Source: Polynucleobacter sp. MG-Unter2-18
Lineage (GTDB): Bacteria > Pseudomonadota > Gammaproteobacteria > Burkholderiales > Burkholderiaceae
Direction of reading: 5' to 3'
NCBI RefSeq assembly: GCF_018687675.1
Contig: NZ_CP061302.1
Coordinates: 1,934,192 to 1,998,191 of the forward strand
Length of the DNA: 64,000 nucleotides
The notes below the pieces were generated by a model. That model ran no database searches. It saw only the letters and a list, made by a program, of their open reading frames with translations, and was not told the origin of the DNA. Positions 24,502 to 53,794 of the stretch are shown here, in pieces. Position numbers and translations under genes: made by a program. Positions within the stretch are counted from its first letter, which is position 1. Each line of letters begins with the position of its first letter.

Positions 24502-24586
24502 AGATAAGAAAACCACCCGAAGGTGGTTTTCTTATCTCTTAGTGGCCCATGGCGGAATCGACCAAAGGGCCTAAGATGTCAAATCC
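24502..24586 (-). repeat. tRNA-Phe 3' fragment with hairpin, leftmost copy
   Basis: 24502-24537 is a perfect 16-bp stem with CGAA loop containing the core AAAACCACC/GGTGGTTTT, the terminator type found next to the intact tRNA-Phe. 24538-24586 is a decayed copy of the 3' half of tRNA-Phe (GGCGGAATCGACCA, then AAGATGTCAAATCC). The stop of the lipoprotein gene lies eight bases further right. It marks the left limit of the array. Confidence 0.75.
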
Positions 24587-24593
24587 TTATTAA

Positions 24594-24989
24594 TCACATC
24601 TTGATAATCTGCCACGCACCTTCTGAGCGACCATCACCAATCTTATCACCGGGCTTGGCATCTTTAGCATAGAAATACAATGGCATGCCATTGAAGGCTA
24701 ACTGCTTTTTGCCATCATCACGGGTAATAACTGAATAGCCGCTAGAGACTGCAGGGCTTCCTTCAACTAATAGTGGCGGCCAGTTCGTTGCGCACATACC
24801 ATTACAAACCGACTTACCCGAACCTCGCGCATCCTTGCTGTAGGTATATAGGGTCATATTATTATTGCCGGCCATTACGCCATCGTTAGCTTTAGTAAAT
24901 GGTGCTAATGCCACGCCAGTCATTGAAGCACAAGCGGCAAGAGTAGCTGTGGCGACTAAGGCAGCCAATAGACTTTTGATTCGATTCAT
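24594..24989 (-). CDS. Secreted lipoprotein-repeat (COG4315-like) lipoprotein
   Basis: 131 aa with lipobox LAAC at residues 17-20 (LVATATLAAC). The mature part has two copies of the COG4315-type repeat (NMTLYTYSKDARGSGKSVCN, then QLAFNGMPLYFYAKDAKPGD), with CNGMCATNWPPLL between. The family is exported and of unknown function. Good AAAGGGG site before ATG. Single-gene segment between two tRNA-Phe fragments. Confidence 0.8.
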   Translation of the reverse strand: MNRIKSLLAALVATATLAACASMTGVALAPFTKANDGVMAGNNNMTLYTYSKDARGSGKSVCNGMCATNWPPLLVEGSPAVSSGYSVITRDDGKKQLAFNGMPLYFYAKDAKPGDKIGDGRSEGAWQIIKM

Positions 24990-25108
24990 GTTTACCCCTT
25001 TGTTAGTTGATTTTGTACTTTAACTCTAATTTATGTCTTTTGCTTTACACGAAATCTATTAATAAGGGCGCCATCCTAATTAACGGAGTCTCATTCGCTG
25101 GCCCAAAT

Positions 25109-25181
25109 GAAAAAGCCATTCGAAGGTCGTTTTAGTGCTTCTTGGTGACCCGAGGTGGAATTGAAAAGGGCCGAGGATGCC
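25109..25181 (-). repeat. tRNA-Phe 3' fragment with decayed hairpin
   Basis: Decayed hairpin at 25109-25133 followed by CTTGGTGACCCGAGGTGGAA and GGGCCGAGGATGCC, a mutated form of the shared fragment. The hydrolase stop codon is 12 bases to its right. The stretch GGAGTCTCAT before it (25085-25094) recurs before the copy at 41.8 kb. Confidence 0.7.
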
Positions 25182-25192
25182 GGATCTGGAAC

Positions 25193-26035
25193 CTATTCCC
25201 CAACAATGAATTGAATTTGACCCGTTTTTATCCACTGAATGACCGCCCTTGAGGTAGCCTCTTCCCTGCCGCCCATTGAATGCAGGTGAGTTCCACCACA
25301 AACATCTCCCGTACCTTCACCACCTTTTACTGTTACTAGATTATTCTTTGAATATGCTGCCACTGTTGCGTAAGGAGTATGAACGCATTGGTCATCTTGG
25401 TGATGAACATTTAGTGCGGATGCCTTTAATGCACCCATATCAAATGACTCTACAGAGTATCCATATGCTCGATTTCGAGAATTTGCATGCGTCATGGCTG
25501 CTGAATGAATGCTTCCCTGAATTTCATTTCCTAAATTTTTAGCGAGCCATTTTGATGAGATAGTTCCATAGCTATGGCCCATGACAAAAAACTTAGTAAT
25601 TCCATATTTTTCCTTTAAGACGGCCATTATTTTTCTAACATCGTCGGCATGCTTTGTGGAAGATCGATAATCATCATTACAAGCTAGTGGAGTGTTGCCT
25701 GGGGCTATTTTATTTTCATCGCTTGGGCAATCCATCACAACAATGGCTATACCTGCTTGAGCAAACAGATCAGTATTATTTTGTAAGTAATTTAAGTTTC
25801 TTTTCCAATCATGTTCTGTCTTGATATTGGCAATACCAGACCAGCCGCGATAAAAAAGTAATGCTGTATCTGATGGTATTGAGGGTTTCAGAAGAATTGC
25901 TCTTTGAACAACCGGAGATTTTGAAAAAACTCCAGACTCCCTACCAACATCGGCCTCTATGAGAATAGGGGTTATTGTTTGGGCTGTCGCAAAGTTAAAA
26001 CAAGCTAAGGCACAAATACTAAATAGCCATTTCAT
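25193..26035 (-). CDS. Exported alpha/beta hydrolase
   Basis: 280 aa with a signal peptide (KWLFSICALACFNFATAQ). Nucleophile elbow GHSYG with Ser155; later HHQDDQCVHTP and GTHLHSMGG give probable acid and His region. It is related to the hydrolase at 47281: both share the HHQ..xCxxTP block and a late GG...C.G...H block. Substrate unknown; the conserved cysteines suggest a periplasmic disulfide. Low-GC third positions compared with neighbours outside the region. Confidence 0.75.
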   Translation of the reverse strand: MKWLFSICALACFNFATAQTITPILIEADVGRESGVFSKSPVVQRAILLKPSIPSDTALLFYRGWSGIANIKTEHDWKRNLNYLQNNTDLFAQAGIAIVVMDCPSDENKIAPGNTPLACNDDYRSSTKHADDVRKIMAVLKEKYGITKFFVMGHSYGTISSKWLAKNLGNEIQGSIHSAAMTHANSRNRAYGYSVESFDMGALKASALNVHHQDDQCVHTPYATVAAYSKNNLVTVKGGEGTGDVCGGTHLHSMGGREEATSRAVIQWIKTGQIQFIVGE

Positions 26036-26125
26036 TTCATAACCCCAGAGTTATATAGGTGAGCAGATTTGCTGACTATGAAACTCTACTCTATTAGTAA
26101 AACATTCAAGGAAACCCGCACATGA

Positions 26126-26176
26126 AAAAGCCACCCGAAGGTGGCGCAAGCCGGCAATGACTAAAACCAAAGATCC
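26126..26176 (-). repeat. Possible strongly decayed tRNA-Phe fragment
   Basis: A short GCCACCCGAAGGTGGC hairpin (26130-26145) of the same type as the others, followed by a sequence that keeps only CCAAAGATCCTAAC of the fragment. The position, a few bases past the stop of the patatin-like gene, fits the pattern, but sequence support is weak. Confidence 0.4.
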
Positions 26177-26181
26177 TAACT

Positions 26182-27288
26182 CTATGCCCAGAATTCTTTT
26201 ATTTTTGGCGCCTCAATTTTTGATCGATCGTAGCCGTTACGCAAAGCACCAGCAATTTGTTTTGGGTCAAGCAAGTCAACACCCTTAGGGGTGCCGGCAA
26301 CTATCCACTTTACTTTTGTACCGGTCGCCTTAATGTCTTCAATATTTTGAGCAACGGGATGAGGAATGGTAGTGAGAATTGCACCCGTCACCCCATCAGT
26401 CAAGGTAATGACCAGAGCTCTTTTTGAGCCAGCAACCAAATCCACATGGGCTGGATTTGAGCAAATTCCCCCATCCATAACGTAACGTTGGCCCAATAAT
26501 GTTGGTCCTGCTACCCCTGGCAAGGAGCTACTTGCTGCTGCACCATGCGCCAAGGGAATGCCATTTTTTCTAGCAACTTGTTGCCCTACAACAATGCGTT
26601 CGCCTGTATAGCAATCAATACCTGTTGTGAACATCCGACCTGTAGGCCAATCTTTTTTACTATCGCCTGTTAATAATGCAACTAGTCTTTCAACGTGATC
26701 GCCGTTTAATTTATTGTTAGCCGCTAAAGCCGCATTGCCGATTATTTTGCGCGTCTCTATGCTCCCATCGGTTGCACTCATATTAATTAGGTCAGCCCTC
26801 ATCTGACTTATATTGGGCTTAGTTAAAGGTGCAATCTTGGCAAAAATATCGGGGAACTTCCCAAAGAAATCAAACTCGGTTCGTAGGCGTGTAAATTCGC
26901 CCGAGAGTAGTGATGAGCCCATATAAGATCCAGCAGAGGTGCCCACTACCATTTCAGGAAGTTGGGTCATATCTAGCCCGGCCTCAATAAGGCCATGAAA
27001 GAATCCGCAATACCAAGCAATGTAATATTCTCCGCCGCCACCGAGCACCATTGTTCGATCGAGGCCTTTTGCTAATTTTGAAACCGTTGGTTTGGTCGCT
27101 ATTGGCAATGACAAGCCATCATCGGCAAATAATTTATTAGATATTTCATCGGCCTTAATTTGAATATTTGACTTTGGGTGCGTTGACTGCGCTTTAGCTG
27201 CATCAGCCATGACTCCTGAAGCACTACTAATGGCCACAGCACCAACAGCGGAAGTTTTTAAAAAATTACGGCGTGAAGATTGCGTCAT
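26182..27288 (-). CDS. Patatin-like phospholipase with Tat signal
   Basis: 368 aa. The N-terminus has a twin-arginine signal (SRRNFLKTSAVGAVAISSA). The patatin domain shows the oxyanion GGGGEY, the nucleophile Ser118 in GTSAG and the catalytic Asp in MDGG. This implies a folded lipid acyl hydrolase exported to the periplasm, unlike RssA-type cytoplasmic patatins. Ribosome-binding site GGAGCC. One-gene segment between tRNA-Phe fragments. Confidence 0.85.
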   Translation of the reverse strand: MTQSSRRNFLKTSAVGAVAISSASGVMADAAKAQSTHPKSNIQIKADEISNKLFADDGLSLPIATKPTVSKLAKGLDRTMVLGGGGEYYIAWYCGFFHGLIEAGLDMTQLPEMVVGTSAGSYMGSSLLSGEFTRLRTEFDFFGKFPDIFAKIAPLTKPNISQMRADLINMSATDGSIETRKIIGNAALAANNKLNGDHVERLVALLTGDSKKDWPTGRMFTTGIDCYTGERIVVGQQVARKNGIPLAHGAAASSSLPGVAGPTLLGQRYVMDGGICSNPAHVDLVAGSKRALVITLTDGVTGAILTTIPHPVAQNIEDIKATGTKVKWIVAGTPKGVDLLDPKQIAGALRNGYDRSKIEAPKIKEFWA

Positions 27289-27336
27289 ATCGGCTCCATT
27301 GATAATTAATCAATTTATAGCAGATCCGCAAATGAG

Positions 27337-27407
27337 AAAACCACCCGAAGGTGGTTTTGGTATTTCTTCGTGGCCCGAGGTGGAATCAACTAGGGCTGAG
27401 GATGCCT
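27337..27407 (-). repeat. tRNA-Phe 3' fragment with hairpin
   Basis: Perfect hairpin AAAACCACC-CGAA-GGTGGTTTT at 27337-27358, identical to the one beside the real tRNA-Phe, then a fragment from TTCTTCGTGGCCCGAGG to GGATGCC. The next cargo stop codon is 14 bases away. Confidence 0.8.
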
Positions 27408-27420
27408 GATCTTTAAGGCA

Positions 27421-28026
27421 TTAGTGATTATGGCCCTTATTATTCATTGGCATCTGACCGTCGATCATTTTCTGATGTTGTTTCATCATGTCGCCATGCC
27501 CATCAGGATGGCAAAACTCATGATCCGAGTTGCCACCCATTTGATGAGGGTTAGCGCTTTTGTATCCCAGAATACTTGGATCAAGCATGCCGGCGATCAT
27601 GGCGATGTGTCCAAATACCAAGAACAAGGCAACGCATATCGCATGAATCTTTAACTTACCCATTTGATCTAGCGCTCGATTAACTAAACCAAACTCTTGT
27701 AGGGCAATCCAGATCAGCGGCAATCCTGCGATGACATAAGTACTAACAGCGATTACATCAATCACTGTTCTCCACTCGCCTGCCTGTGTAATGGGAATAA
27801 TGGCGTTAGTCACAATGTAGTAAATGATTCCAACAAAATAAACGCCCACAGCAATCCCAGAAAAGCGATTGAGGTAATAAACAGCACCATCGAACTTGCG
27901 AGTAAAGAGTAGATATAGCTCAGTGATAGCTAAAGTCTCTGCCAAGATGATTGGGATGGCCATAAAGATAATTAAATTCCAAGGCTGATTAACAGCCAAT
28001 AACTCCATGTAGTGGGTCATGTTCAT
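27421..28026 (-). CDS. Multi-pass membrane protein with His-rich tail (DUF6803-like)
   Basis: 201 aa with four membrane segments (about residues 17-40, 53-77, 88-110, 125-147) and a C-terminal tail rich in His, Met and Asp (DHEFCHPDGHGDMMKQHQ, ending NNKGHNH). It resembles the DUF6803 permease-like group as I recall it. The tail suggests binding of a metal such as copper or nickel; that is inference. GGAGA precedes the ATG. Confidence 0.6.
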   Translation of the reverse strand: MNMTHYMELLAVNQPWNLIIFMAIPIILAETLAITELYLLFTRKFDGAVYYLNRFSGIAVGVYFVGIIYYIVTNAIIPITQAGEWRTVIDVIAVSTYVIAGLPLIWIALQEFGLVNRALDQMGKLKIHAICVALFLVFGHIAMIAGMLDPSILGYKSANPHQMGGNSDHEFCHPDGHGDMMKQHQKMIDGQMPMNNKGHNH

Positions 28027-28094
28027 TGTGTTTCTCCAAAATAAAGGCGTGACTGAGTGTCACAAATCAAACTAACTTGCATTACAAAATTAGC

Positions 28095-28433
28095 TTAGGC
28101 TTTTGGAGGTTTATAGATAAAGTTGATCATTGGCTGGAGAACCAATAATGAGCCTGTTGAAGGCGGAGCTTGGGTTGAGGCTATCGATAACTCAATACTC
28201 AATATTGGAATAACGACTAAACCTAAACAGCACTGATAACTGTCGGCATGGCAAGGTTGATTGGTATTTGTATCTTGAGAGTTGCTCACCAGCTCATCAC
28301 AATGATGGTCTGAGTTATCAGTAACGGCAACTTGATGCTGAGGCTGATGTGCCGATAAATCAATGGGCATCACTGCCGCATGAATCAAGCTGGCGAACAG
28401 ACTAAAGCAAAGAGCGACACATATCCTTCTCAT
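28095..28433 (-). CDS. Exported Cys/His-rich small protein
   Basis: 112 aa with a signal peptide ending near ASLIHA. The mature region has NSDHHCDELV and CHADSYQCC, then a second hydrophobic stretch (VVIPILSIELSIAS) and a FIYKPPKA end. The layout recalls DUF2946-type or other metal-linked exported proteins, but I do not recognise it firmly. It lies just upstream of the His-rich membrane protein on the same strand. Confidence 0.5.
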   Translation of the reverse strand: MRRICVALCFSLFASLIHAAVMPIDLSAHQPQHQVAVTDNSDHHCDELVSNSQDTNTNQPCHADSYQCCLGLVVIPILSIELSIASTQAPPSTGSLLVLQPMINFIYKPPKA

Positions 28434-28463
28434 AATTCCATTTTATGCCCATTTGCTAGATTT

Positions 28464-28478
28464 GTCGTTTTAAACGAC
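28464..28478. repeat. Single 15-bp palindrome GTCGTTTTAAACGAC
   Basis: Same palindrome as the left end of the 61-bp elements, here alone and about 40 bases before the DUF3147 start codon, between two divergent genes. The position would suit an operator. Confidence 0.6.
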
Positions 28479-28516
28479 ATTCCTATAATGGGGCAAGCAA
28501 AAAATTTAAGGCATCT

Positions 28517-28867
28517 ATGGCTTGGATTATTACTAAGTATCTCCTAACAGCAGGAATGGTTGTGTTCATCTCTGAGGCAGCTAAACGCAGTGATAGGTTA
28601 GGCGGCTTTATTGCGGCATTGCCATTAATGACTCTTCTAACACTTGTATGGCTGTATGTAGAAAACCAACCCGAAGAGAAGATAGCTAATCACGCTTATT
28701 ACACCTTCTGGTATGTGATTCCAACATTGCCAATGTTTCTGCTGTTCCCATATTTACTTCCAAGGCTGGGGTTTTGGATGGCTATGGGGACATGCGTAAT
28801 GGCGACAGTTATCTTTTTTGGCTTATTCGCTTTGCTGATGAAAAACTTTGGAATTGATTTGCTCTAA
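28517..28867 (+). CDS. DUF3147 family membrane protein
   Basis: 116 aa with four hydrophobic segments, matching DUF3147 (KYLLTAGMVVFISEAAKRSD, RLGGFIAALPLMTLLTL, YVIPTLPMFLLFPYLLPRLG). Function unknown. Plus strand, against the direction of most cargo genes here. Confidence 0.75.
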   Translation: MAWIITKYLLTAGMVVFISEAAKRSDRLGGFIAALPLMTLLTLVWLYVENQPEEKIANHAYYTFWYVIPTLPMFLLFPYLLPRLGFWMAMGTCVMATVIFFGLFALLMKNFGIDLL

Positions 28868-28872
28868 GAATT

Positions 28873-28933
28873 GTCGTTTTAAACAATATCGACTTACGCA
28901 GGGGTGAATAATTGACTCGTCTTTTTAAGGGAC
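28873..28933. repeat. 61-bp two-palindrome element, decayed copy
   Basis: Begins GTCGTTTTAAACAAT and ends GTCTTTTTAAGGGAC, each a mutated palindrome, with CTTACGCAGGGGTGAATAAT between. Same length as the copies at 30682, 31983 and 48060. A decayed form of the following stretch (GCCGGGGATAGCC) and of the hairpin continues to about 29010. It starts five bases after the DUF3147 stop. Confidence 0.75.
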
Positions 28934-29096
28934 ATTTTATGCCGGGGATAGCCAAGACTAATGGCTTATATCCCTGTAAAGCTAAAAAAAATAGCATAAC
29001 AAGCAGCTTAACAACATCATATCTTTTGGACACAAAATGGCGCATGATAGTCAGATAAGTTCACAAAAAAATGCAACTAAAAAGCAGAGGTATCAA

Positions 29097-29573
29097 ATGA
29101 GCACAAAAATAGATATTGGCATTAACGAAAAAGATCGAAAAGCCATTGCCAAAGGACTATCAGAGCTTTTAGCTGACAGCTACTCCTTATATTTGATGAC
29201 ACATAACTTCCATTGGAATGTGAAGGGCCAGATGTTCAACACCCTTCACACGATGTTCATGGCTCAATATACGGAGCAGTGGGCGGCGCTCGATTTAATC
29301 GCAGAGCGCATCAGAGCACTCGGGGAGCCAGCACCTGGCACTTATAAAGAGTTCTCAAAACTGACCTCAATCAAAGAAGTTGAAGGGGTGCCAAAGGCAA
29401 TGGATATGGTGAGGCATCTTGTTAAGGCTCAAGAAGCTACAGCAAAAACTGCTCGTAAACTTTTTCCCTTGGTTGATAAAGCAAATGATCAACCCTCAGC
29501 AGATCTTCTGACTCAACGACAAGATATCCATGAGAAAACTGCCTGGATGCTAAGAAGTCTATTGGAGGAGTAA
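29097..29573 (+). CDS. dps: Dps family DNA-binding ferritin-like protein
   Basis: 158 aa from ATG 29097 (AGAGG site). The ferroxidase motif HNFHWNVKGQMFNTLHTMF and DLIAERIRALGE places the iron ligands at about His39, His51, Asp66 and Glu70. Dps stores iron, consumes peroxide and protects DNA in stationary phase. It is the only cytoplasmic stress protein with a clear function in the array besides SodC, which is exported. Confidence 0.93.
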   Translation: MSTKIDIGINEKDRKAIAKGLSELLADSYSLYLMTHNFHWNVKGQMFNTLHTMFMAQYTEQWAALDLIAERIRALGEPAPGTYKEFSKLTSIKEVEGVPKAMDMVRHLVKAQEATAKTARKLFPLVDKANDQPSADLLTQRQDIHEKTAWMLRSLLEE

Positions 29574-29588
29574 ATCCCGTATAAATGA

Positions 29589-29656
29589 AAAAACCACCCA
29601 AGGTGGTTTTGGTATTTCTTGGTTGCCCGGGGCGGAATCGGCCAGGACCGAGGACA
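29589..29656 (-). repeat. tRNA-Phe 3' fragment with hairpin
   Basis: Hairpin AAAACCACC/GGTGGTTTT (29589-29610) with a short CA loop, then TTCTTGGTTGCCCGGGGCGG and GGACCGAGGACATG. The lipoprotein stop is 24 bases right. Confidence 0.75.
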
Positions 29657-29679
29657 TGAATCCCTCAAGAGTATGCCGT

Positions 29680-30000
29680 CTATCTATAACCCAGAACATC
29701 GTCCTGAGTTCTTTTTTGACCCTCTAAGAATCTTTTACTACATATTCCCGAACCACTTTGATTTGCGAGCTTTTTTGCGTCTACCTGCATTTGATACATT
29801 GTTTCAAAACAATCTCTTCTATTCACAAACTCAAATGCTTTTGTATGGGTTTGCTTACCCTTATGAAAATAGAAAAAATCTAAAGTCCAGTACTTATCGC
29901 CTGTAATGCTAACGCTCATAGGCGCTGAGTCTAGTGGCGGAGGTTGACTCGCACAGGAAATCAAAAACACCACAATGCAAAGAATAGAAAACTTGTTCAC
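29680..30000 (-). CDS. Small lipoprotein, function unknown
   Basis: 106 aa, start codon GTG at 30000, lipobox LISC at residues 13-16 (FSILCIVVFLISC). The mature part ends in a basic stretch and has two cysteines (RRDCFETMYQ and GICSKRF). No family recognised. One-gene segment. Confidence 0.6.
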   Translation of the reverse strand: MNKFSILCIVVFLISCASQPPPLDSAPMSVSITGDKYWTLDFFYFHKGKQTHTKAFEFVNRRDCFETMYQMQVDAKKLANQSGSGICSKRFLEGQKRTQDDVLGYR

Positions 30001-30084
30001 GTTTGGCTTACTGTCTATAAATCCTCAATTTCCAAGAATTCTATACTTTTTTAACAAGTAAATTCCTGACATCCCAAAATAAAA

Positions 30085-30126
30085 AAAACACCCGAAGGTG
30101 GTTTTGGTGTTTCTTGGTGGCCGGGT
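30085..30126 (-). repeat. Truncated tRNA-Phe 3' fragment with hairpin
   Basis: Hairpin ACACCCGAAGGTGGT followed by TTCTTGGTGGCCGGGTC; only the CCA end and part of the acceptor strand remain. The DM13 gene stop is about ten bases right. Confidence 0.65.
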
Positions 30127-30135
30127 CAAATTTAC

Positions 30136-30630
30136 TTACTTTGCTGGGCGTAAATCAGCCGATCCGATGTACTCTTTAAATTGTTTACACCAAATCAGCA
30201 TGCTGTTTATATCTTCTGAATTTTGTGTTTTTAAAAGATAGAATGCGGCGCCATTGGGCTTTTTAATGCGACTGACTTCAATCTGTTGAGAGCTAAACTC
30301 ATCATTATCTTTAATGGCAGGCTTGCTACTGATATAGATGTGATAGTCCGGCCCAGGACTAGACTTAAAGTCATCACTGGATTGTAAAAACAATTGATTA
30401 CCAACTTTAACTAACGACCACTCACCAGAAGAGTTGTGGATCAAATCTTGTCCCTTAGCGTTTTTATCAATTTGTCCTCGCTTGAGGATTTCGCCTTCAA
30501 CTTTTTGATTGTCTTCAAAACGTGACTTAATATCTTGTGCGTGACCACGGATTGCGTCGAGAAGCTGGGCGCTTGCTGAAATTGGAAGTAGCAAGAAAAC
30601 GCTTAAAAAGAGGATATTTAATTTATTCAT
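30136..30630 (-). CDS. Exported DM13-domain protein
   Basis: 164 aa from ATG 30630, chosen for GAGG at six bases and a clean signal peptide (NILFLSVFLLLPISASA). The rest is a DM13 domain: HNSSGEWSLVKVGNQLFLQ, GPDYHIYISSKPAIKD and SMLIWCKQFKEYIGSADLRP. DM13 domains are thought to bind redox cofactors or act in electron transfer; bacterial roles are unclear. Confidence 0.75.
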   Translation of the reverse strand: MNKLNILFLSVFLLLPISASAQLLDAIRGHAQDIKSRFEDNQKVEGEILKRGQIDKNAKGQDLIHNSSGEWSLVKVGNQLFLQSSDDFKSSPGPDYHIYISSKPAIKDNDEFSSQQIEVSRIKKPNGAAFYLLKTQNSEDINSMLIWCKQFKEYIGSADLRPAK

Positions 30631-30681
30631 CCAAAGCCTCATAAAGTAACTAGCATCAATATAGATCCTTTCACAATATTT

Positions 30682-30742
30682 GTCGTTTTAAACGACATCG
30701 ACTGACGCAGGGATGAATAATTGACGTGTCCTTTTAAAGGAC
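30682..30742. repeat. 61-bp two-palindrome element, intact copy
   Basis: GTCGTTTTAAACGAC at 30682-30696 and GTCCTTTTAAAGGAC at 30728-30742, with 31 bases between that contain GACGCAGGGATGAATAATTG. It continues without break to a hairpin and tRNA-Phe fragment at 30802-30880, forming a unit of about 200 bp. Confidence 0.85.
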
Positions 30743-30801
30743 AGTTCTTGATGGGGATATCCGAGACTAATGGCGTCAAACCCTGCCAAGCCATAAAAGA
30801 A

Positions 30802-30880
30802 AATAGCCCAACAAGTGGGCTATTGAGATTCTTGGTGGCCCGGGGCGGAATCGAACCAAGGCCGAGGATGTCAATCCTAC
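30802..30880 (-). repeat. tRNA-Phe 3' fragment with GCCCA-type hairpin
   Basis: Hairpin AATAGCCCA-ACAAG-TGGGCTATT (30802-30824), then a fragment that is identical to the intact tRNA-Phe over CCA, acceptor strand and T-arm (30832-30857), followed by GGCCGAGGATGTCAATCCT. The sodC stop codon TAG (30877-30879) falls inside the end of this match. Confidence 0.88.
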
Positions 30881-46583: not shown

Positions 46584-46621
46584 TGGGTATGTTTTTTATA
46601 ATTAAACAAAAGGAATTAATT

Positions 46622-46939: not shown

Positions 46940-47056
46940 AGTTGCTGATATTTTAGTTCTGCTACGCGGAAGTTATTAAAGCTTTGAAGTAAGTCTCTAA
47001 TATCTAGATACTTACTCCCATTCCGCGTTTGATTTGGAAGGCCCCACCCATGATTC

Positions 47057-47071
47057 GTCCTTTTAAAGGAC
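47057..47071. repeat. Single palindrome GTCCTTTTAAAGGAC
   Basis: Right-end palindrome of the 61-bp family without its left partner. The sequence after it matches the inverted copy that ends at 48493. Confidence 0.65.
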
Positions 47072-47109
47072 ACTTCATATGTGGGGTACCCCTAGCATGA
47101 CCAATTGAA

Positions 47110-47268
47110 TAGTCCGAGCGGTCAATCAGGATTTGGCATCCTGAAACTAGATTTAGAGTTCTCAGAAAGATAGCCACGCTGGGCTAAGGTAGTCGCACCA
47201 TCTGCTACTTTGGCGCCACTATGGATTCTTGGTGGCCCGGGGCGGAATCTACCAGGGCCGAGGATGTC
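47110..47268. repeat. 160-bp direct repeat, copy 2 (with tRNA-Phe fragment)
   Basis: Matches 40175-40334 with a few substitutions and one indel. The tRNA-Phe part (47226-47268) has lost a few bases in the T-loop (GAATCTACCA). Hydrolase stop 13 bases right. Confidence 0.85.
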
Positions 47269-47280
47269 TGATCCACCCAG

Positions 47281-48015
47281 CTAATTTGCCAAAATAAATT
47301 TGGCGGCGGCATTGACCATCTGGTCTTCTACCTTATTGAACCCATGGTATGCCAATCCCATACATGGCAAGCCTACGTCTTCTCCCCCATCAATCATGAC
47401 TAATTCTGATTTAGTTTCTTTACTTCGCCCCTTAATGATTGATTCTGATGCGCTTATTGGTGTAGCGGCGCACGCTTCTTTTTGATGGTGGATTGCCATT
47501 ACCGGCTTACTAAAGTTATTGCCTAAAGTTTCCCCAATATGTGTCCCGGCAATAATGATCCCAGCTACTGCCCCAGACTTCTCGCTCTGATTCGCAAATT
47601 GAACTGCTGTTACCGTTCCCATGCTGTGTCCAAAAATCCAGACGGGTACATTGAATTTATTTCTGTAATATTTAACGACACTTTCAACTCGTGCTATGTG
47701 TTCAGATTTGCCGCGTACATTCCCACGCCTTGCGTCACCCAAATCATAGGGCGAATCCACCAATACTGAATTAATTCCATACTGCTGCCATAATCCTGCC
47801 GAACGATTTAGCGGATTTTGCTTGGTGGTTGACCCGTCAGACTTTAAATCTAATACCCCATCGCCACCAATGAATAGAAGAACAACTGCTTTTGGCTTGG
47901 CAGTCTCAATTAGAAATGTTTTTGTAGGTGTCTCACCAGTCTGTGGAACCTCTAGCAACTGTCCATAGACAAAAGCCGGCACGAAAAGCGATATCAGACA
48001 AATAATTATTTTCAT
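47281..48015 (-). CDS. Exported alpha/beta hydrolase, paralogue of 25193
   Basis: 244 aa from ATG 48015. Signal peptide (IIICLISLFVPAFVYG), nucleophile elbow GHSMG, then HHQKEACAATP and GLPCMGLAYHGF. The last blocks align with the hydrolase at 25193, so these are divergent members of one exported family held in two segments of the array. Substrate unknown. Confidence 0.75.
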   Translation of the reverse strand: MKIIICLISLFVPAFVYGQLLEVPQTGETPTKTFLIETAKPKAVVLLFIGGDGVLDLKSDGSTTKQNPLNRSAGLWQQYGINSVLVDSPYDLGDARRGNVRGKSEHIARVESVVKYYRNKFNVPVWIFGHSMGTVTAVQFANQSEKSGAVAGIIIAGTHIGETLGNNFSKPVMAIHHQKEACAATPISASESIIKGRSKETKSELVMIDGGEDVGLPCMGLAYHGFNKVEDQMVNAAAKFILAN

Positions 48016-48059
48016 TGAGCGTGTCTCCATTAGCTTTAAATATTAGCATCATCTACGTT

Positions 48060-48120
48060 GTCGTTTTAAACGACATCAACTGACGCAAGGATGTCTAATT
48101 GACGTGTCCTTTTAAAGGAC
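48060..48120. repeat. 61-bp two-palindrome element, intact copy
   Basis: GTCGTTTTAAACGAC (48060-48074) and GTCCTTTTAAAGGAC (48106-48120). It continues through GGGGGTATCCGAAAG and CCAAGCCCTAAATG into the hairpin and tRNA fragment, as at 30682-30880. Confidence 0.85.
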
Positions 48121-48179
48121 GGTTCATACTGGGGGTATCCGAAAGTAATGGTGGCTAACCATGCCAAGCCCTAAATGAA

Positions 48180-48262
48180 AATAGCCCAACTAGTGGGCTA
48201 TTGAGATTCTTGGTGGCCCGGGGCGGAATCGAACCACCGACACAAGGATTTTCAACTCTGCC
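48180..48262 (-). repeat. Longest tRNA-Phe 3' fragment, with hairpin
   Basis: Hairpin AATAGCCCA-ACTAG-TGGGCTATT, then 48211-48255 matches 53719-53763 of the intact tRNA-Phe base for base (45 bp, CCA end through variable loop into the anticodon loop), after which it diverges. Unlike the other copies it keeps CCGACACAAGG rather than GGGCCGAGG. Confidence 0.92.
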
Positions 48263-48498
48263 CCCCCAGACTAAACTCCCGCTAGATCTCAAAAGGTTCA
48301 CCCCACCCGAGTCTAACTTTGTGCACAAAACTTTGATGGAGTGATCTAAGAGACTGAATTGGTTGAGTTATTTTGACCCACGCAAGGAGTGAGGGAAAGT
48401 TTGGTGGCGTGATGGGGATTCGACTGACGCAGGGGAGATAACTCCTTGTTGTGATCGGGGATACCTCACACATGAAGTGTCCTTTAAAAGGACAAAAT

Positions 48499-48522
48499 AA
48501 AACCACCCCGAAGGGTGGTTTT
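48499..48522. terminator. CCACC-type hairpin without tRNA part
   Basis: AAAACCACCC-CGAA-GGGTGGTTTT, 19 bases left of the stop of the gene at 48541. Perfect ten-base stem with A- and T-runs, so it can end transcription either way. Confidence 0.75.
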
Positions 48523-48540
48523 ATCCAGAACAAGGGCCAA

Positions 48541-49983
48541 CTAATTTAGTTTGTACACATAACATGCTGTACGAACATTATTTTTGTATTTATTTTGTTC
48601 ACAATTTTGCAATGCATTTTGAGTTGCTTGTTGCGGTGTTGGGCTGTTATAGCTCATAGTGCAATAACTATTTGTACCGTCATAAGCTACAGCATAGGCC
48701 TTATTGTTTCCATAACCAGGCTTGTTATAATTTGCATTGAAGTGATTCGTGCACTGAGAAGGCAATACCTGAGGATTTGCTAGGGCACGTTTTCTCTCCT
48801 CCTCTTCCCTTGCCGCCTCTTGCTTCGCAAATTCCTGACGTTGAGCCTCTTCAGCTTTTGCAAGCTCCTCCTGTCTTAATGTTTCTTGCTTAGTCTCTTC
48901 TTGACGTTTTGCCTCTTCAGCTTTTGCAATTTCCTCTTGCTGGGTAATTTCAGCCTTACGATCAAGCTCTAGCTTATATTGCCAACCACCATATCCGATG
49001 CCGCCAATCACGGATGCCGCAACCAATCCAATCACAATTTTTTTTGCTACCTGGGGGTCAATTGAAATTGGGTTCTTAAAAACATCTGGGTTGCCCTGAC
49101 TAGAGCCTAAAGCCCCTGCCTGAAAAGGTTGCTGGTGAGGTGCTGAGTTATTTGTACCTGTTGAGCCGCCATGAATAACTCCACCCGATGAGATCGAGAG
49201 TATTGCTTTCATTAAGTCAATGGCTAAGTAAAAAATTACAAAAAATACATATGCTAAAAATGGGTAGGCTAGGCCTCCCAGTACCTGGGCTACGCCTTCT
49301 ATAGACTCTAACCCACCGGCATATATTTCAAAACCACTGCCTTTAATTAATCTGAATAATCCAAATATTAAATTTATAGTTCCAAAAATAGTAGCGGCAC
49401 CAAAAATTATTCCAGCCATTCTTACTGATGATTTGTAGCCAAAAGCCAAAATTGCTATTGCATCCTCACCTGCTGATGTATTTTTATCAACATTAGTAGA
49501 GACCAGGCTGGGGTGGAGACTAAAGCACACTGAAAATACCAGTGCCACCAGAATTAGCACAGTCCATTTAAGAATATCTGGAGAGCTCATCTTAATCGCT
49601 AAAACCATACCTCCAAGAGCCACGAAAATTATGCCGAGCACTCCTATGAGGCCAATAACATCTATATATTCTTTGCTACTGATTTTTGTTGGATTGTTAT
49701 GAACAACCGTCTTGCAACTAACCAAAAATTTTGAGCCAATGTAGTAACCCACTGCAATAGCAATCACCCACCCAATACCCGCTAAAAATGCAATGAAGGA
49801 ATCTGTCTTAATGGCCGCTGTTAAACCCATTAAGAGTCCCACTATTGCCGCAAGAGGAGCCGCATAAGATGCCGCCTGCTCTAGTCTTTGCTCACTTTTT
49901 ACAAAAAACTCGACGCTAATTGCTTTTCTAAAAAATTTAATCAGATTATCAATAATCTGATTGCTGTGGTCCATCGGGTTCAT
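48541..49983 (-). CDS. Multi-TM protein with coiled coil and DUF4189-like tail
   Basis: 480 aa from ATG 49983 (GGAGA). About seven membrane segments in the first 270 residues, one further segment near 315-335, a Glu/Lys/Gln-rich coiled coil (about 345-400) and a C-terminal domain with AYAVAYDGTNSYCTMSYNSP and QNALQNCEQNKYKNN, similar to DUF4189. The tail has three Cys and is probably periplasmic. Function unknown; no close family for the whole protein. Confidence 0.6.
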   Translation of the reverse strand: MNPMDHSNQIIDNLIKFFRKAISVEFFVKSEQRLEQAASYAAPLAAIVGLLMGLTAAIKTDSFIAFLAGIGWVIAIAVGYYIGSKFLVSCKTVVHNNPTKISSKEYIDVIGLIGVLGIIFVALGGMVLAIKMSSPDILKWTVLILVALVFSVCFSLHPSLVSTNVDKNTSAGEDAIAILAFGYKSSVRMAGIIFGAATIFGTINLIFGLFRLIKGSGFEIYAGGLESIEGVAQVLGGLAYPFLAYVFFVIFYLAIDLMKAILSISSGGVIHGGSTGTNNSAPHQQPFQAGALGSSQGNPDVFKNPISIDPQVAKKIVIGLVAASVIGGIGYGGWQYKLELDRKAEITQQEEIAKAEEAKRQEETKQETLRQEELAKAEEAQRQEFAKQEAAREEEERKRALANPQVLPSQCTNHFNANYNKPGYGNNKAYAVAYDGTNSYCTMSYNSPTPQQATQNALQNCEQNKYKNNVRTACYVYKLN

Positions 49984-50187
49984 TTTGTCTCCATTTTGGC
50001 TTTTTGGGATTTGTGAAATTTTTATTCGATTCGAATATATCAAACTATTCTGAAATTTTATGTATTTTTACTTTACCTTTAGGAAATTATTCAATAAGAG
50101 GTGCTTTTGCAGGGCATTTCAATTAATTCGGTTGTAAATTCATCTAATTATGTTAAAAATTAGAGTAATTAATTTTTATCTACATTT

Positions 50188-50832
50188 ATGAAAATCCTAT
50201 TTTTAGCCCTCTCCGCATCTTTCATTCTTGGGGCATGCTCCACTACCCCTAATAAATCTGCCGAAAGCGCTAATCTTAAAGATCGGGCTATTGCTACAGA
50301 CTTTACGGATGAGGGCATCAAAATCACCTATACCTTTACTGGAAAACTCGATTCCATCGAGGTGTATGGGCAAGCCGAAGCATGGAGAGGAAACGTAGAG
50401 GCTATCGCTGAAGCAGATGCCATGGCTAAATTAACTAAGTTTGTTAATGGCAGGAATGTGTCTACAGAGCGCCGCGTCAAGGTCATTGGTCGCTCAATTG
50501 AAGAGGCGCAAGACAACAAACTGGACAAATATAAGAGTCAGGATGGTACGATTAATGTCACAGACAAACAGGTAGATTACGAGCCCTATGTTGATAAAAA
50601 TCAACAGTCATCCCAAGATACCAGCGCCATGCGTAACGCTAAGGTCATTAACGAGACAATCGTCACTACAGTAACCAATATCACCTCCAAGGGTCGCCTT
50701 ACTGGCGTTCGTAAAATTCGCGACTTCCAGCGCAATGATGGAAAAACTTATGTTGCTGTCTATGTATGGAGCGATAAAGACCAGGCTACCTCTGAATACA
50801 TCCGTAATCGGATGCAAGGCAAATCACAGTAA
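50188..50832 (+). CDS. LPP20-like lipoprotein
   Basis: 214 aa, lipobox LGAC at residues 14-17. GQAEAWRGNVEAIAEADAMA and VKVIGRSIEEAQDNK fit the LPP20/FlgP style of outer-membrane lipoprotein. Two bases separate it from the next gene on the same strand. A flagellar role is not supported, since no flagellar genes are near. Confidence 0.55.
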   Translation: MKILFLALSASFILGACSTTPNKSAESANLKDRAIATDFTDEGIKITYTFTGKLDSIEVYGQAEAWRGNVEAIAEADAMAKLTKFVNGRNVSTERRVKVIGRSIEEAQDNKLDKYKSQDGTINVTDKQVDYEPYVDKNQQSSQDTSAMRNAKVINETIVTTVTNITSKGRLTGVRKIRDFQRNDGKTYVAVYVWSDKDQATSEYIRNRMQGKSQ

Positions 50833-50834
50833 TC

Positions 50835-51986
50835 ATGCGTTTTAAAGTAATTGCATTAGCTATTTGTCTATGCTGTGCAGTTACGGCTAAAGGCCAAATA
50901 CTTGGGGCCTTAGCCCCCAGCCCCCTGACTATTGCCCTAACTGTTGGGCAGTGGTTAGTAAAAGACTCTCAAAAAGCCTATTACGTTCAGGTTGAGTCTA
51001 CTGCGGCTACACCCGCCCAAGCGAGAGCTGAAGGCTTTAAATTAGCGGTTGGCCAAGCAGTTGGAACATTGGTAGTGGCTGAGAGTGAAGTGAAAAATCA
51101 ACAACTTGTTCGTAATGAAATCATTCAATACTCATCTGGCTATATTCAGGATTTTAAAATCTTAGGCGAGACTCACGTAGGCTCCATGACGAGAGTTGTG
51201 ATGGATGTCTGGGTGACTGAGAGCAAAATTGCTGACAGACTACTTAATGTAAGTAAAGCTGATGGTGCGGTGGATGGTGAAAAGTCTGCGGCTCAATATC
51301 GCTCTAACTTAAATCAAATGCAATCGGGTGATCGTTTGCTAGAGTTGATTTTGAATGACTTTCCTAGCAAATCATTTGATATCAAGGCTGGTAAGTCTAT
51401 TGTGACAATGCCCGCCAGAAGCATTCAAATTCAAATACCCATCAATATTTCTTGGAATAAGGAATACATCTCTAGCCTAACTGAGGTACTAGATAAAGTA
51501 CGCCAAGGCAGAACTGCAAATTACTATGGGGGACCAAACTGGGCCGCAGTTATCCGCTACAAAAATAAGTCGGATTGGAGTATGTCTACAGCCTCGTTTA
51601 GAGACACAATTAAATTAGAGCTCATAGAATCCAATCTGATTAAATCTGAACCACTTATTAAGTTAATCATCAAGGATGAAGCCGGATATCACCTTTTTGG
51701 GCAATGCTTTCGTTATCCCGGATTATCAGGGGCTTATTTGGGCGAGCCCGTTCCTCTCATTGGTTACGTTAAAGATCGTTATGGGAATACTGCGGGTCAA
51801 TTTTTCAGCTATGGGGGCGAATTTGGCGAAAGAACCAATTTGAAATCTGCTGACTTAAGTATTTTTGGGGACTTTAAAGATGAACCGGTCCTAATAATTG
51901 ATTTGCCGCCCAATATTGCGCTAGAGCGGCTAGGGGGGATGAGTAAAACTGAGATAACTGTAGTTCGTGGAAGTAGTTGCAGATAA
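50835..51986 (+). CDS. Exported protein with FlgT-N-like domain
   Basis: 383 aa with a signal peptide (ALAICLCCAVTAKG). Residues about 45-140 (TPAQARAEGFKLAVGQAVGT, SGYIQDFKILGETHV) recall the N-terminal domain of FlgT-type proteins. The rest is unassigned. Forms a pair with the LPP20-like gene, both likely envelope proteins working together. Confidence 0.5.
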   Translation: MRFKVIALAICLCCAVTAKGQILGALAPSPLTIALTVGQWLVKDSQKAYYVQVESTAATPAQARAEGFKLAVGQAVGTLVVAESEVKNQQLVRNEIIQYSSGYIQDFKILGETHVGSMTRVVMDVWVTESKIADRLLNVSKADGAVDGEKSAAQYRSNLNQMQSGDRLLELILNDFPSKSFDIKAGKSIVTMPARSIQIQIPINISWNKEYISSLTEVLDKVRQGRTANYYGGPNWAAVIRYKNKSDWSMSTASFRDTIKLELIESNLIKSEPLIKLIIKDEAGYHLFGQCFRYPGLSGAYLGEPVPLIGYVKDRYGNTAGQFFSYGGEFGERTNLKSADLSIFGDFKDEPVLIIDLPPNIALERLGGMSKTEITVVRGSSCR

Positions 51987-52009
51987 CTACAGTGCCAAGC
52001 CCAAAAGAA

Positions 52010-52080
52010 AATAGCCCAACAAGTGGGCTATTGAGATTCTTGGTGGCCCGGGGCGGAATCGAACTAGGGCCGAGGATGAC
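52010..52080 (-). repeat. tRNA-Phe 3' fragment with GCCCA-type hairpin
   Basis: Hairpin AATAGCCCA-ACAAG-TGGGCTATT preceded by GTGCCAAGCCCAAAAG, then a fragment with perfect acceptor and T-stem part, GAACTAGGGCCGAGGATGAC. Here the gene to the left is on the plus strand; the minus-strand gene to the right ends 90 bases away. Confidence 0.85.
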
Positions 52081-52169
52081 TGACTCTATCTCTGGACTGT
52101 CTCTTTAAACAACATATCAATCTAATCAAATAAATGATTTTACTTCGACTGGTCTGAAAAATAATTTAG

Positions 52170-53264
52170 CTAAATTTTATTTTTTCTAAGTTGATCATCA
52201 ATTGTTTTTTGTTTTAGCTCTTCTACTTTCTTTTTTTCAAGCTCAACCGCCTCAGAGAATTCTTTTTTATATTTTTTATTACTATCTATAATTGATTCAT
52301 AATTTTGTGGCTCTGCGAATTTACAGATAAAACTTGTTTTTCTAAGACAAGAATAAGGCCTAAAATTCGTTCCCCCAAAACATGTTGAGTATCTCACTAC
52401 TGAAACAGTTAGCGTATCTCTTTCAACTCTAATTGATTCAATTGTATCTTCATATTTGTCATCCAAGGGATATGATTCAACAACCTTAAATTGATGATAA
52501 TTATCAGGCTTATCACTTACATCTTTAATTAATTCATATTCTTTAAACGATGAATCCAATTTTGACTTTGCTGCTTCATATGAAGTGAACCTAGCAATAT
52601 CGTATCCGCTCTTAGAAAAGGATAAAAAATTAGCCGTGGCATTATTTGACTCCCCCGAACATGTCAAAGCATATTCAACTTTATCTGCCATTCTTTTTTC
52701 TTCATACCTTTCTTGCTCCCTATTCAAAGCAGAATTTACGAAGCTATGTGACTTGAGTGTTAATGCCTGTGCCTCCACGTTTGTGACAACTTTAATGAAA
52801 TCTGCTTGATTTACGTCAGGATGAATTATATTTAAGGGGCCAGCGACGCCTCTAAAAAGAAAAATGTTACCCGTTTTCAACTTTGAATTTTCAAAAGACC
52901 TCCACTGTATGTCTACCTTCTTGCCTCCCTCATACAGCCTGACTCTTTTACTATCTCCCTCATAAAATGCCAGCCATAGTATTTGTTTATTCTGACAATT
53001 TTTACGATAGAAATCTCCTCCGTTTTCCCTTTTAAATTCTCCAGCTGAAAAACAGTAGTTTGGGCCTCTGTATGCTACGTCTTCGAAATCTTTTTTTGTA
53101 TCAAAATTACCATAACTTTTTATTTCAGCCATTTCTTTGGCATCGGCAAATCCCAGCGATACCGCTAATTTATCTTCATTCTTTAGTATTTTTTCCGATT
53201 CATTGCCACAACCAGTCGCCAAGATTGTCGAAATTATGACTACATAAAATTTCAATATTTTCAT
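52170..53264 (-). CDS. Lipoprotein, function unknown
   Basis: 364 aa with lipobox ATGC at residues 16-19. Very AT-rich with high Lys/Asn/Ser, unlike genes outside the region, which suggests transfer. Charged C-terminal helix (FSEAVELEKKKVEELKQKT). Three cysteine-containing stretches (TCSGES, STCFGGT, TSFICKF). No family recognised. Nearest large cargo gene to tRNA-Phe, so possibly the latest arrival. Confidence 0.65.
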   Translation of the reverse strand: MKILKFYVVIISTILATGCGNESEKILKNEDKLAVSLGFADAKEMAEIKSYGNFDTKKDFEDVAYRGPNYCFSAGEFKRENGGDFYRKNCQNKQILWLAFYEGDSKRVRLYEGGKKVDIQWRSFENSKLKTGNIFLFRGVAGPLNIIHPDVNQADFIKVVTNVEAQALTLKSHSFVNSALNREQERYEEKRMADKVEYALTCSGESNNATANFLSFSKSGYDIARFTSYEAAKSKLDSSFKEYELIKDVSDKPDNYHQFKVVESYPLDDKYEDTIESIRVERDTLTVSVVRYSTCFGGTNFRPYSCLRKTSFICKFAEPQNYESIIDSNKKYKKEFSEAVELEKKKVEELKQKTIDDQLRKNKI

Positions 53265-53491
53265 AATTATTTTGTTTGGGTGTTGGATTAAATGAAAAAA
53301 TATTAATTGAATATTTAAAGAATATCAATTACCTATCAATTTATACTAGACCCCTATATTTTTCTATATACAATTTTTAATCTGGATTTCGACTACCCTC
53401 TTCATTCCCACAATAATCAAGCCAATAATTACATAGAAACACCGAGGGGTCGCAGGATAGCTGGCCCTGCGGTGGTGGCGATAATTGGACT

Positions 53492-53686
53492 ATGAGGAAT
53501 TATGAAGTTATCTCCATTGATCCTACCGACCAAATGAACCACTGGGTTATTACCTATCGAACAGCTAATGGCCTCACCGACAAGCAATCTGTCGTGGCAA
53601 TTGACTCCAACGATGCTTTTATTGTGTTTCGTAACCAAATGATTAAAGAAGCTAAGGCTAAAGTTAAGTTTATTAAACCTAAATGA
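53492..53686 (+). CDS. Small protein, function unknown
   Basis: 64 aa ([20 protein letters not shown], then [18 protein letters not shown]). Weak ribosome-binding site. It runs into the tRNA-Phe terminator, which may end its transcript as well. No family recognised. Confidence 0.5.
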
Positions 53687-53687
53687 A

Positions 53688-53709
53688 AAAACCACCCGAA
53701 GGTGGTTTT
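53688..53709. terminator. Terminator after tRNA-Phe
   Basis: AAAACCACC-CGAA-GGTGGTTTT, nine bases past the CCA end of tRNA-Phe on the minus strand. Same hairpin accompanies the fragments at 24.5, 27.3, 29.6 and 31.5 kb. Confidence 0.85.
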
Positions 53710-53718
53710 AGTGTTTCT

Positions 53719-53794
53719 TGGTGGCCCGGGGCGGAATCGAACCACCGACACAAGGATTTTCAATCCTCTGCTCTACCGACTGAGCTACCAGGCC
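53719..53794 (-). tRNA. tRNA-Phe (GAA), anchor of the fragment array
   Basis: 76 bases with encoded CCA. Acceptor GGCCTGG pairs with CCGGGCC (one G-U), D-arm TAGCTCAGTCGGTAGAGCA, anticodon loop TTGAAAA (GAA) and T-arm GGTTCGATTCC are standard. Its 3' half, from CCA through the T-arm, is the sequence repeated at least 13 times to the left. Confidence 0.97.

Follow-up and report, generated by a model that had tools for sequence, protein, structure and literature searches.

A tRNA-Phe-anchored cassette array in Polynucleobacter, probably built by serial site-specific insertion

The stretch of DNA analyzed here (the window, 64,000 nucleotides, bases 1934192–1998191 of the complete 2,009,228-bp chromosome of Polynucleobacter sp. 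MG-Unter2-18) contains an intact tRNA-Phe gene followed downstream by a row of partial copies of its 3' end, each of which borders a unit of cargo DNA. It is very probable that this is a chromosomal cassette array that arose through successive site-specific recombination events in the 3' portion of a single tRNA-Phe gene, with two types of site (a and b), and serial site-specific insertion, largely in trans, is its best supported explanation. Directly observed are the anatomy of the units, their unit-wise sharing between species, an increase of copy divergence with distance from the tRNA, and the confinement of two recombinase families, referred to as TRs and TRL, to type-b units in our sample. 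A preliminary description of the window had proposed serial insertion and a tRNA-anchored cassette array, and this proposal is supported by unit-wise gain and loss, by linkage to the gene and by the order of divergence; the two site types, the lack of a recombinase in the window array, the recombinase-bearing elements in the arrays of other species and the terminator and head travelling with the units are added here.

The anchor, tRNA-Phe(gaa), lies on the minus strand at 53719–53794, where it had been placed before and where ARAGORN and Rfam agree, and is the sole full-length copy found in the genome, which has 39 tRNA matches. The 25-mer of its 3' end occurs eight times with at most three mismatches, the gene included, and not once in 100 dinucleotide shuffles. 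With up to eight mismatches there are 12 occurrences on the minus strand (the gene and 11 partial copies) and none on the plus strand, in agreement with the single orientation reported earlier; 200 mononucleotide shuffles gave a mean of 0.125 per strand with a maximum of two. The partial copies, all downstream of the gene, span 24.5–52.1 kb, with CCA ends at 24540, 25143, 27368, 29620, 30833, 40295, 40783, 41826, 47230, 48211 and 52041. The earlier count of at least 13 copies and a weak trace holds if remains of the terminator are included; strictly, there are 11 strong partial copies and three weaker traces, at 26.13, 30.11 and 31.55 kb, which blastn does detect (E = 2.3e-5, 2.6e-14 and 3.6e-4, respectively) but which consist mainly of the tRNA terminator and a few bases of the CCA end. 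Likewise, the designation of the copies as 3' halves suits the one at 48211, the only one in the window to start in the anticodon loop (45 nt), but not the other strong copies, which comprise about 20–26 nt from the T-loop to the CCA; the distal ones are degenerate, often with a conserved non-tRNA arm directly before them.

The 24-mer of the tRNA-Phe end (up to three mismatches) is found at 12 places in the genome, ten of them in the window including the gene and two at 1.32 Mb, and the 39 tRNA matches of the genome include no full-length tRNA-Phe at either of the latter. The copies are linked to tRNA-Phe and not scattered genome-wide, and small secondary arrays begin with decayed tRNA-Phe-like copies. 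One such secondary array, with a glycosyltransferase unit and a decayed copy at its start, is seen at 1.324–1.325 Mb of the same genome (locus L043, 8813–10285), and further ectopic copies occur in loci L051, L056, L059 and L060. Rfam finds two tRNAs and no other RNA family in the window, and a tandem-repeat scan of the window returned nothing relevant.

A 20-mer of tRNA-Phe (up to one mismatch) was found in 174 of 186 congeneric genomes and in 143 of the 144 near-complete ones. There are 1–13 copies per genome with a median of 3 over all 186, at least three copies in 101 genomes and at least five in 62; the reversed 20-mer, used as a control, is absent from the genomes listed. Elsewhere in the family, 135 genomes from 24 genera were sampled; the 20-mer occurs in 55 of them, with a maximum of two copies, a comparison that is only partly informative since the other 80 lack it. 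Units were delimited in 43 stitched stretches of 38 hand-picked genomes (relatives that were listed first, followed by genomes with several copies, mostly in a single contig, and some chosen for their recombinase), 35 of these stretches having an intact tRNA-Phe. They contain 262 copies at up to seven mismatches (reversed control, one) and 218 units, of which 177 belong to type a (median 1061 bp) and 41 to type b (median 3830 bp).

Read with the tRNA, a unit starts with a terminator and head just past the CCA of the preceding copy, continues with its cargo and an arm, and ends at the next copy, so that each partial copy is the 3' border of one unit. In many units of the window this copy stands close behind the stop codon of a minus-strand gene. 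The type-a border consists of about 20–26 nt of tRNA-Phe, T-loop to CCA, with an arm of the kind GGATTAGACATCCTCGGCCCTGG before it, and the type-b border of 45 nt from the anticodon loop, the copy at 48211 being the single example in the window. The type-a arm motif GGCC(C)TGG, which repeats the acceptor 3' strand in inverted form and resembles the tRNA's own 5' end, is present with at most one mismatch in 70% of 141 distinct type-a arms (3.3% after shuffling). Where type-a units below 1300 bp contain an open reading frame (ORF) of at least 70 aa, the longest one is co-oriented with the tRNA in 90 of 108 cases (binomial 5e-13), and the stop codons of these 90 lie a median of 26.5 nt ahead of the core. 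So compact a plan, the conservation of the non-tRNA arm and the presence of whole units in several species in new contexts speak against an ordinary series of unrelated prophage or island remnants, eroded to short segments at a hot tRNA gene. The erosion of old copies agrees with such a series, as does the use of tRNA-Phe by other elements, the 45-nt type-b site being present on six IMG/VR contigs (no TRs or TRL on the stretches examined); we consider it very improbable. The exact type-a site pattern gave no hit in IMG/VR. One IMG/VR contig of 13,065 bp (L195), on which neither TRs nor TRL was found, carries at each end a repeat made up of the 45-nt tRNA-Phe site and six further bases, and is perhaps the circular form of another element using this site.

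Two types of intrinsic-terminator hairpin, already distinguished in the preliminary description, recur in the window heads around AAACCACCTTCGGGTGGTTT and ATAGCCCACTTGTTGGGCTAT, and a third type of head follows the copies at 40295 and 47230. The terminator of the present tRNA-Phe is of type 1 and lies in the head of the proximal unit (53686–53709, minus strand), while the type-2 hairpin (ATAGCCCACTTGTTGGGCTAT) is found after a partial copy at 30803–30823 (minus strand) and also after those at 40783, 41826, 48211 and 52041. In the sample, a hairpin with T-run stands behind 30 of 35 intact tRNA-Phe genes, 34 of 45 type-b copies and 146 of 181 type-a copies (shuffled, 7–9%). The stems behind the intact gene belong to at least four unrelated kinds in different genomes, and the adjacent unit therefore seems to provide the terminator of the tRNA; we infer that this supply is what makes repeated insertion tolerable. 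The frequency of terminators behind type-a copies, together with the position of these copies just past stop codons in small type-a units, is also what one would expect if the copies were functional RNA ends (a tRNA-like 3' structure plus terminator) selected as mRNA 3' ends and spread by duplication. The same diversity of stems behind the intact gene does not suit such a function, the sites have a GGCCC/GGGCC inverted repeat and no strong folding signal of the attC kind (weakly better than shuffles, median z –1.4, 60 of 141 sites), and entire units are gained and lost exactly at the borders. Because the units are mobile unit by unit, a role as RNA ends is refuted as the sole explanation, and we give it hardly any credence.

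Segment-wise gain or loss at the fragments in related genomes had been set beforehand as a test of the array, and it is seen in G017 and G014. The genome G017, the most similar of those first compared, is collinear with the window over 23339–30879, 30681–32044, 36331–40341 and 53718–57000, and has counterparts of units 9 and 10 (counted from the tRNA outward) at 98% and 99% identity. The six tRNA-proximal units of the window (40295–53719) have no G017 match beyond repeated heads, G017 has one private 681-bp unit next to its tRNA, and the stretch at about 32.0–36.3 kb also differs between the two. In G014, the window segments 29583–30125 and 47226–48236, 17 kb apart, stand side by side, unit 3 is found at 92% identity with different neighbours, and the cassette of the Cu/Zn superoxide dismutase (SOD) occupies an ectopic chromosomal site (96.3% identity), the alignment running border to border from the decayed copy 31515–31557 to the copy at 30833. 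The family of unit 11 is also present in G013, G014 (twice), G017 and G078. In all, 87 of the 218 units fall into 30 families (at least 80% mutual coverage), each occurring in more than one stretch and some being 97–98% identical between species; one 645-bp cassette recurs in 12 stretches, and its rank within the tRNA arrays varies from 1 to 6. The tRNA-side neighbour varies in 25 families, a generous count since non-family neighbours were scored as different. Of 515 distinct breakpoints, defined as ends of alignments of at least 300 bp and at least 85% identity between different genomes, 34% lie no more than 50 bp from a copy (random, 4.1%).

The copies can also be ordered in time. In 26 of the 27 arrays with variation, the 20 nt to the right of the crossover hold more mismatches the farther a copy lies from the tRNA (two further arrays, constant in mismatches, are not among the 27), the trend of divergence with distance having a median rho of 0.67 over 200 copies (within-array permutation p 1e-4); dating by divergence, which had been suggested, places the older copies farther from the tRNA. 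G008 and G079 have four units in common order, with three extra units of G008 on the tRNA side. In this pair as in G000/G017, each with a run of four consecutive shared units, every unit that does not belong to the run lies toward the tRNA.

Both TRs and TRL are encoded in eight units of 8.4–18.2 kb, in the arrays of G006, G040, G065, G073, G076 and G078, and a ninth TRL-bearing unit (G076) has TRL without TRs. TRs is thus found in 8 and TRL in 9 of the 41 type-b units, and either of them in 0 of 177 type-a units (Fisher for TRL, 1.4e-7), a zero that concerns these two families, other recombinases having been sought by PF00589 in 19 genomes; 209 of the 218 units are without both. At least one type-a unit lies on the tRNA side of each of the eight two-recombinase units, and in G065, whose recombinase element measures 9112 bp, there are two. 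TRs (about 190–225 aa) matches PF00589 and comprises the catalytic domain alone, and TRL (about 424 aa) matches the phrog_1 integrase profile (E 4.6e-32) and, weakly, the NCBIfam XerA entry, and has invariant residues R264, K295, R378-H379 and Y411, which we take to be the catalytic residues of a tyrosine recombinase. By domain or profile match and by conserved residues, both are predicted tyrosine recombinases. Further products of the element annotated in G078 are an AAA protein resembling clamp loaders and a DUF6641 protein; the other loci compared have relatives of these. In all 19 genomes examined the two top PF00589 hits are of the XerC/XerD class, as read from scores, a distribution that speaks neither for nor against XerC/D as the type-a enzyme. 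A XerD-class gene, classified in the same way, lies just left of the window at 1933200–1933730 of the genome; where positions were compared such a gene is found about 18–70 kb beyond tRNA-Phe, probably a case of conserved synteny.

Relatives of TRL at 80% identity or more are present in 15 genomes; of those placed, the ones in G078 (two), G040, G065, G076, G123, G006 and G073 lie inside tRNA-Phe arrays and that in G063 lies outside. Genomes with such a TRL carry more copies of the 20-mer (median 7, n = 15) than the others (median 3, n = 171; p 1e-6), an association that is weak because the element itself contributes copies. Among 79 loci of TRL relatives, 21 have a tRNA-Phe, -Lys or -Met gene in the same orientation no more than 300 bp upstream, and the majority of these 21 carry a name other than Polynucleobacter. 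A distal exact tRNA fragment from nt 31–33 to the end is found in L208, L210, L212, L221 and L226. Elements lying on the 5' side of tRNA-Phe leave 5' fragments, which end at nt 38 or 39, in L046 12699, L127 14715, L139 17557, L261, L272 and L274. Fragments 1–38 and 32–76 share nt 32–38, so the overlap corresponds to the 7-nt anticodon loop, and because of these fragments and of the tRNA-adjacent loci TRL is likely to be the type-b integrase. Three TRL loci stand on contigs of metagenome-assembled genomes labelled Nitrospira, Akkermansia and Cryomorphaceae (L206, L253 and L203, respectively), probably misbinned freshwater Burkholderiales DNA.

A palindrome of the consensus GTC(C/G)TTTnAAA(G/C)GAC connects the units of the window with the recombinase-bearing elements, and no perfect palindrome is more frequent than it in seven loci whose TRL is of the array type. 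In the window, the pair GTCGTTTTAAACGAC / GTCCTTTTAAAGGAC stands in a unit head at 30682–30742, further pairs at 31983/32029, 39522/39619 and 48060/48106, and single ones at 28464, 38086, 47057 and 48479. Eight of the ten exact 17-mers of the genome fall within the window array (binomial 9e-14, with pairs treated as independent although they are not). In the sample, the palindrome is present within the first 260 bp of 26 of the 41 type-b units and of 55 of the 177 type-a units, the C-type lying at 90–112 bp in 38 and the G-type at 135–160 bp in 25 of the 218 units, and its density is 1.99 per kb in heads against 0.18 in unit interiors. At 190–260 bp ahead of the core it occurs in 25 of 41 type-b tails and in 1 of 177 type-a tails. 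The same genome has a different TRs/TRL pair at 1.61–1.62 Mb, with a different palindrome, GTTACTTnAAGTAAC, all seven genome copies of which fall at 1588–1622 kb. Palindrome type thus seems to track recombinase lineage, imperfectly, as L051 and L126, of the same lineage as this pair, are without GTTACTTnAAGTAAC. The pair (1612922 and 1620080) belongs to an island at 1588–1622 kb (L278, L123, L279) that also contains a DUF6641-like gene, and no tRNA was found in 45 kb there.

The arms of recombinase elements and of other units are related as well. The tail of unit 2 (about 284 bp including the 45-nt site) is 84.7–88.4% identical to the tails of five TRL-bearing units (G065, G078, G040, G076) and up to 90.5% identical to cargo-only tails. 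A head matching that of a TRL unit, the first 45 bp being omitted from the comparison, is found in 44 of the 177 type-a units and in 15 of the 33 type-b units without TRL, so that a quarter of the type-a cassettes look like one-armed clients of recombinase elements.

Several observations weigh against serial insertion as outlined here. No recombinase was found among 30 window ORFs run against Pfam (29 of them in the array), and a six-frame PF00589 search of the genome gave six hits, none in the array, so that neither search placed an integrase within a unit of the window. The one TRL scanned did not match PF00589 at 0.01, and TRL is without a PDB sequence match. G003, with an array of five copies, has just two PF00589 hits, of XerC/XerD class by score reading; a resident enzyme is therefore unnecessary for the persistence of an array. 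Tails matching those of TRL units are found in 16 of 33 TRL-less type-b units and in 2 of 177 type-a units, and as type-a units share heads and hardly ever tails, a single enzyme for both types cannot be taken as given. Among the 12 pairs of arrays sharing at least two families three are non-collinear, and in the nine collinear ones private units are 33 proximal, 30 between and 37 distal, a scatter that fits separate acquisition in distant species and gives no proof of polarity. Finally, two-thirds of the breakpoints lie more than 50 bp from any detected copy, which indicates that other recombination acts as well. Homologous recombination between arrays, such as could follow natural transformation, might be the main way in which units spread, with core, terminators and the heads of about 150 bp as homology and no site-specific recombinase now active. 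Besides these breakpoints and the lack of TRs and TRL in G003 and others, this agrees with the head next to 48211, which matches about 30 other heads over at least 120 bp at 77–88%, and with the recombination-to-mutation ratio of 7.4 given for P. asymbioticus (PMC5644125). Alone, homologous recombination would neither order the copies by age from the tRNA nor retain tRNA 3' sequence and terminator at the borders; the tRNA-side position of all units outside the shared runs of G000/G017 and G008/G079 argues against it, and the two-recombinase elements with the same arms in the same arrays are left unaccounted for. We regard it as unlikely to be the main route.

Under serial site-specific insertion, an incoming circular unit would comprise, in order, the final segment of tRNA-Phe, in most cases a terminator, often a further head, the cargo and its own recombination-site end; circular intermediates and excision are presumed steps. 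Insertion would restore an intact tRNA-Phe, now backed by the terminator of the incoming unit. The 3' end present before would move away from the gene and persist as a border copy, leaving the youngest unit next to the tRNA. In type b, the crossover would take place in the anticodon loop with the overlap TTGAAAA (tRNA nt 32–38), served by the elements of 8–18 kb that encode TRL and TRs, with TRL as the putative enzyme, and cargo-only type-b relatives with the same arms would be mobilized in trans. In type a, it would take place near the T-loop and concern cassettes of about 1 kb, mostly with a single gene and without TRs or TRL; as a first guess, the enzyme is supplied by the same elements (TRs or TRL). 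The array bears on how streamlined freshwater plankton acquire single genes, as a genus-wide platform on which small units are added at a fixed place, mostly in one direction and usually with their own terminator, at apparently little cost to the single-copy tRNA-Phe gene. From it an order of acquisitions can be read, and two candidate enzymes as well as possible DNA sites can be named.

The units of the window, all read on the minus strand, carry varied cargo, lipase-like genes included, with Pfam matches to Cu/Zn SOD, DM13, patatin, ferritin-like, DUF4410, DUF6803, SPFH, PHB depolymerase-like, CDGSH and bactofilin families; matches to alpha/beta hydrolases are weak, and several cargo ORFs have no known family. 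Unit 1 (52041–53718, type a, 1678 bp, tail copy 52041–52065) contains a gene for 364 aa without Pfam match (52170–53264). Unit 2 (48211–52040, type b, 3830 bp), with its anticodon-loop site at 48211–48255, contains ORFs 48541–50043, 50188–50832 and 50835–51986. Type-a units 3 to 6 comprise an alpha/beta hydrolase-like gene at 47281–48030 (unit 3, 47230–48210, 981 bp), four minus-strand genes within 41933–45935 (weakly NnrS-like, TPR, unknown and SPFH/Band 7) with plus-strand ORFs (unit 4, 41826–47229, 5404 bp), a DUF4410 gene at 40849–41397 (unit 5, 40783–41825, 1043 bp) and a 120-aa ORF at 40340–40702 (unit 6, 40295–40782, 488 bp). Unit 7, 9462 bp between strong copies (30833–40294), includes the Cu/Zn SOD (30877–31401), PHB depolymerase-like (34925–36208), CDGSH, bactofilin and other genes; the decayed copy 31515–31557 and the head palindromes 31983/32029 suggest older borders in a composite unit. 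A tRNA-Cys(gca) inside it (32851–32925, plus strand) is possibly a cargo tRNA. Unit 8 (29620–30832, 1213 bp), with a DM13 gene (30136–30642) and a 106-aa ORF (29680–30000), probably represents two cassettes, given a weak internal copy at 30077–30122. Farther out are unit 9 (27368–29619, 2252 bp; DUF6803 gene 27421–28026, ferritin-like gene 29037–29573 on the plus strand, and others), unit 10 (25143–27367, 2225 bp; patatin-like gene 26182–27288, alpha/beta hydrolase-like gene 25193–26035, weak copy 26122–26144) and, farthest from tRNA-Phe, unit 11 (24540–25142, 603 bp; Lipoprotein_15 gene 24594–24989). A reading of the cargo as a defence island was rejected, PADLOC giving one weak match, to a TPR protein, among 10 proteins.

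Integrons hold tandem arrays of mostly single-gene cassettes in one orientation, with the site just past the stop codon and the youngest cassette at the fixed end. The array described here likewise consists of tandem, mostly single-gene cassettes in one orientation, with the site behind the stop codon and the youngest unit at the anchor. Unlike in integrons, the fixed site is a tRNA gene, the cassette site is a copy of the tRNA T-arm and acceptor, there is no adjacent integrase (none of the genome's six PF00589 hits lies in the array, and no IntI with attI was seen beside it), and most units carry a terminator and many a head region of their own. It is conceivable, and we advance it tentatively, that the type-a cassettes constitute a second integron-like capture system in most species of the genus, with tRNA-Phe in the role of attI, a mini-tRNA (acceptor-like strand and T-loop copy) in that of attC, terminators that most cassettes would bring themselves, leaving a rebuilt tRNA-Phe properly terminated after every capture, and a recombinase provided wholly in trans by transient elements.

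Other systems are anchored on tRNA genes. Additive flexible genomic islands with tRNA-anchored cassettes are described in Alteromonas (fGI1, PMC4119200), and in Ca. Methylopumilus fGI-2 has recurring 20-nt tRNA-Lys repeats and islands of 330 bp to 42 kb (PMC10872708). Here too cassettes accumulate at a conserved tRNA that serves as the target of insertion, the locus being conserved and the number of cassettes variable between species (one genome per species). The Alteromonas cassettes are gene clusters, whereas the present array is largely single-gene, and an enzyme, site anatomy, terminator exchange or a single-gene plan does not appear in the available parts of these two accounts. According to Islander, tRNA 3' fragments mark island ends, with anticodon-loop (A) and T-region (J) subsites, and a tandem requires its own integrase and fragment for each member; 3919 islands include 125 tandems of at least two members and 4 of at least three (PMC4383910). 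The tRNA-Lys site of PFGI-1 measures 45 bp and belongs to class IA (PMC2647930). The present array shows the arrangement of integrative elements, with a distal tRNA 3' fragment and a proximal intact tRNA; arrays of this kind differ from Islander tandems in having up to 13 copies per genome and in that 209 of the 218 sampled units lack TRs and TRL. Borders, two site types, arms and candidate enzymes can be followed across 35 tRNA-Phe loci.

Tycheposons are tyrosine-recombinase elements at tRNA genes that carry cargo and are mobilized by vesicles or capsids. Their size is given second-hand as 4–200 kb, and the available part of that second-hand description has no tier of single-gene, recombinase-free cassettes (PMC10872708). 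Some loci with the label Methylopumilus or Methylophilaceae (L263, L264, L269, L273) also contain TRL relatives, and the array may help to explain tRNA repeats of other freshwater bacteria; a related integrase may account for the tRNA-Lys repeats of Methylopumilus. The sequence GGGGGATTAGCTCAGCTGGT presumably represents something like a tRNA 5' end. Its reverse complement is printed as the 'last 20 bp' of the Methylopumilus tRNA-Lys (PMC10872708). A literature search over titles and the beginnings of abstracts found no account of this tRNA-Phe array, a prior mention being possible in the Polynucleobacter island paper PMC5244307; PMC5644125 uses none of the terms tRNA, cassette and integrase. 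Thus, tRNA-anchored additive islands are already known, and what is new here is an array that is many-fold, mostly integrase-less, largely single-gene and terminator-carrying.

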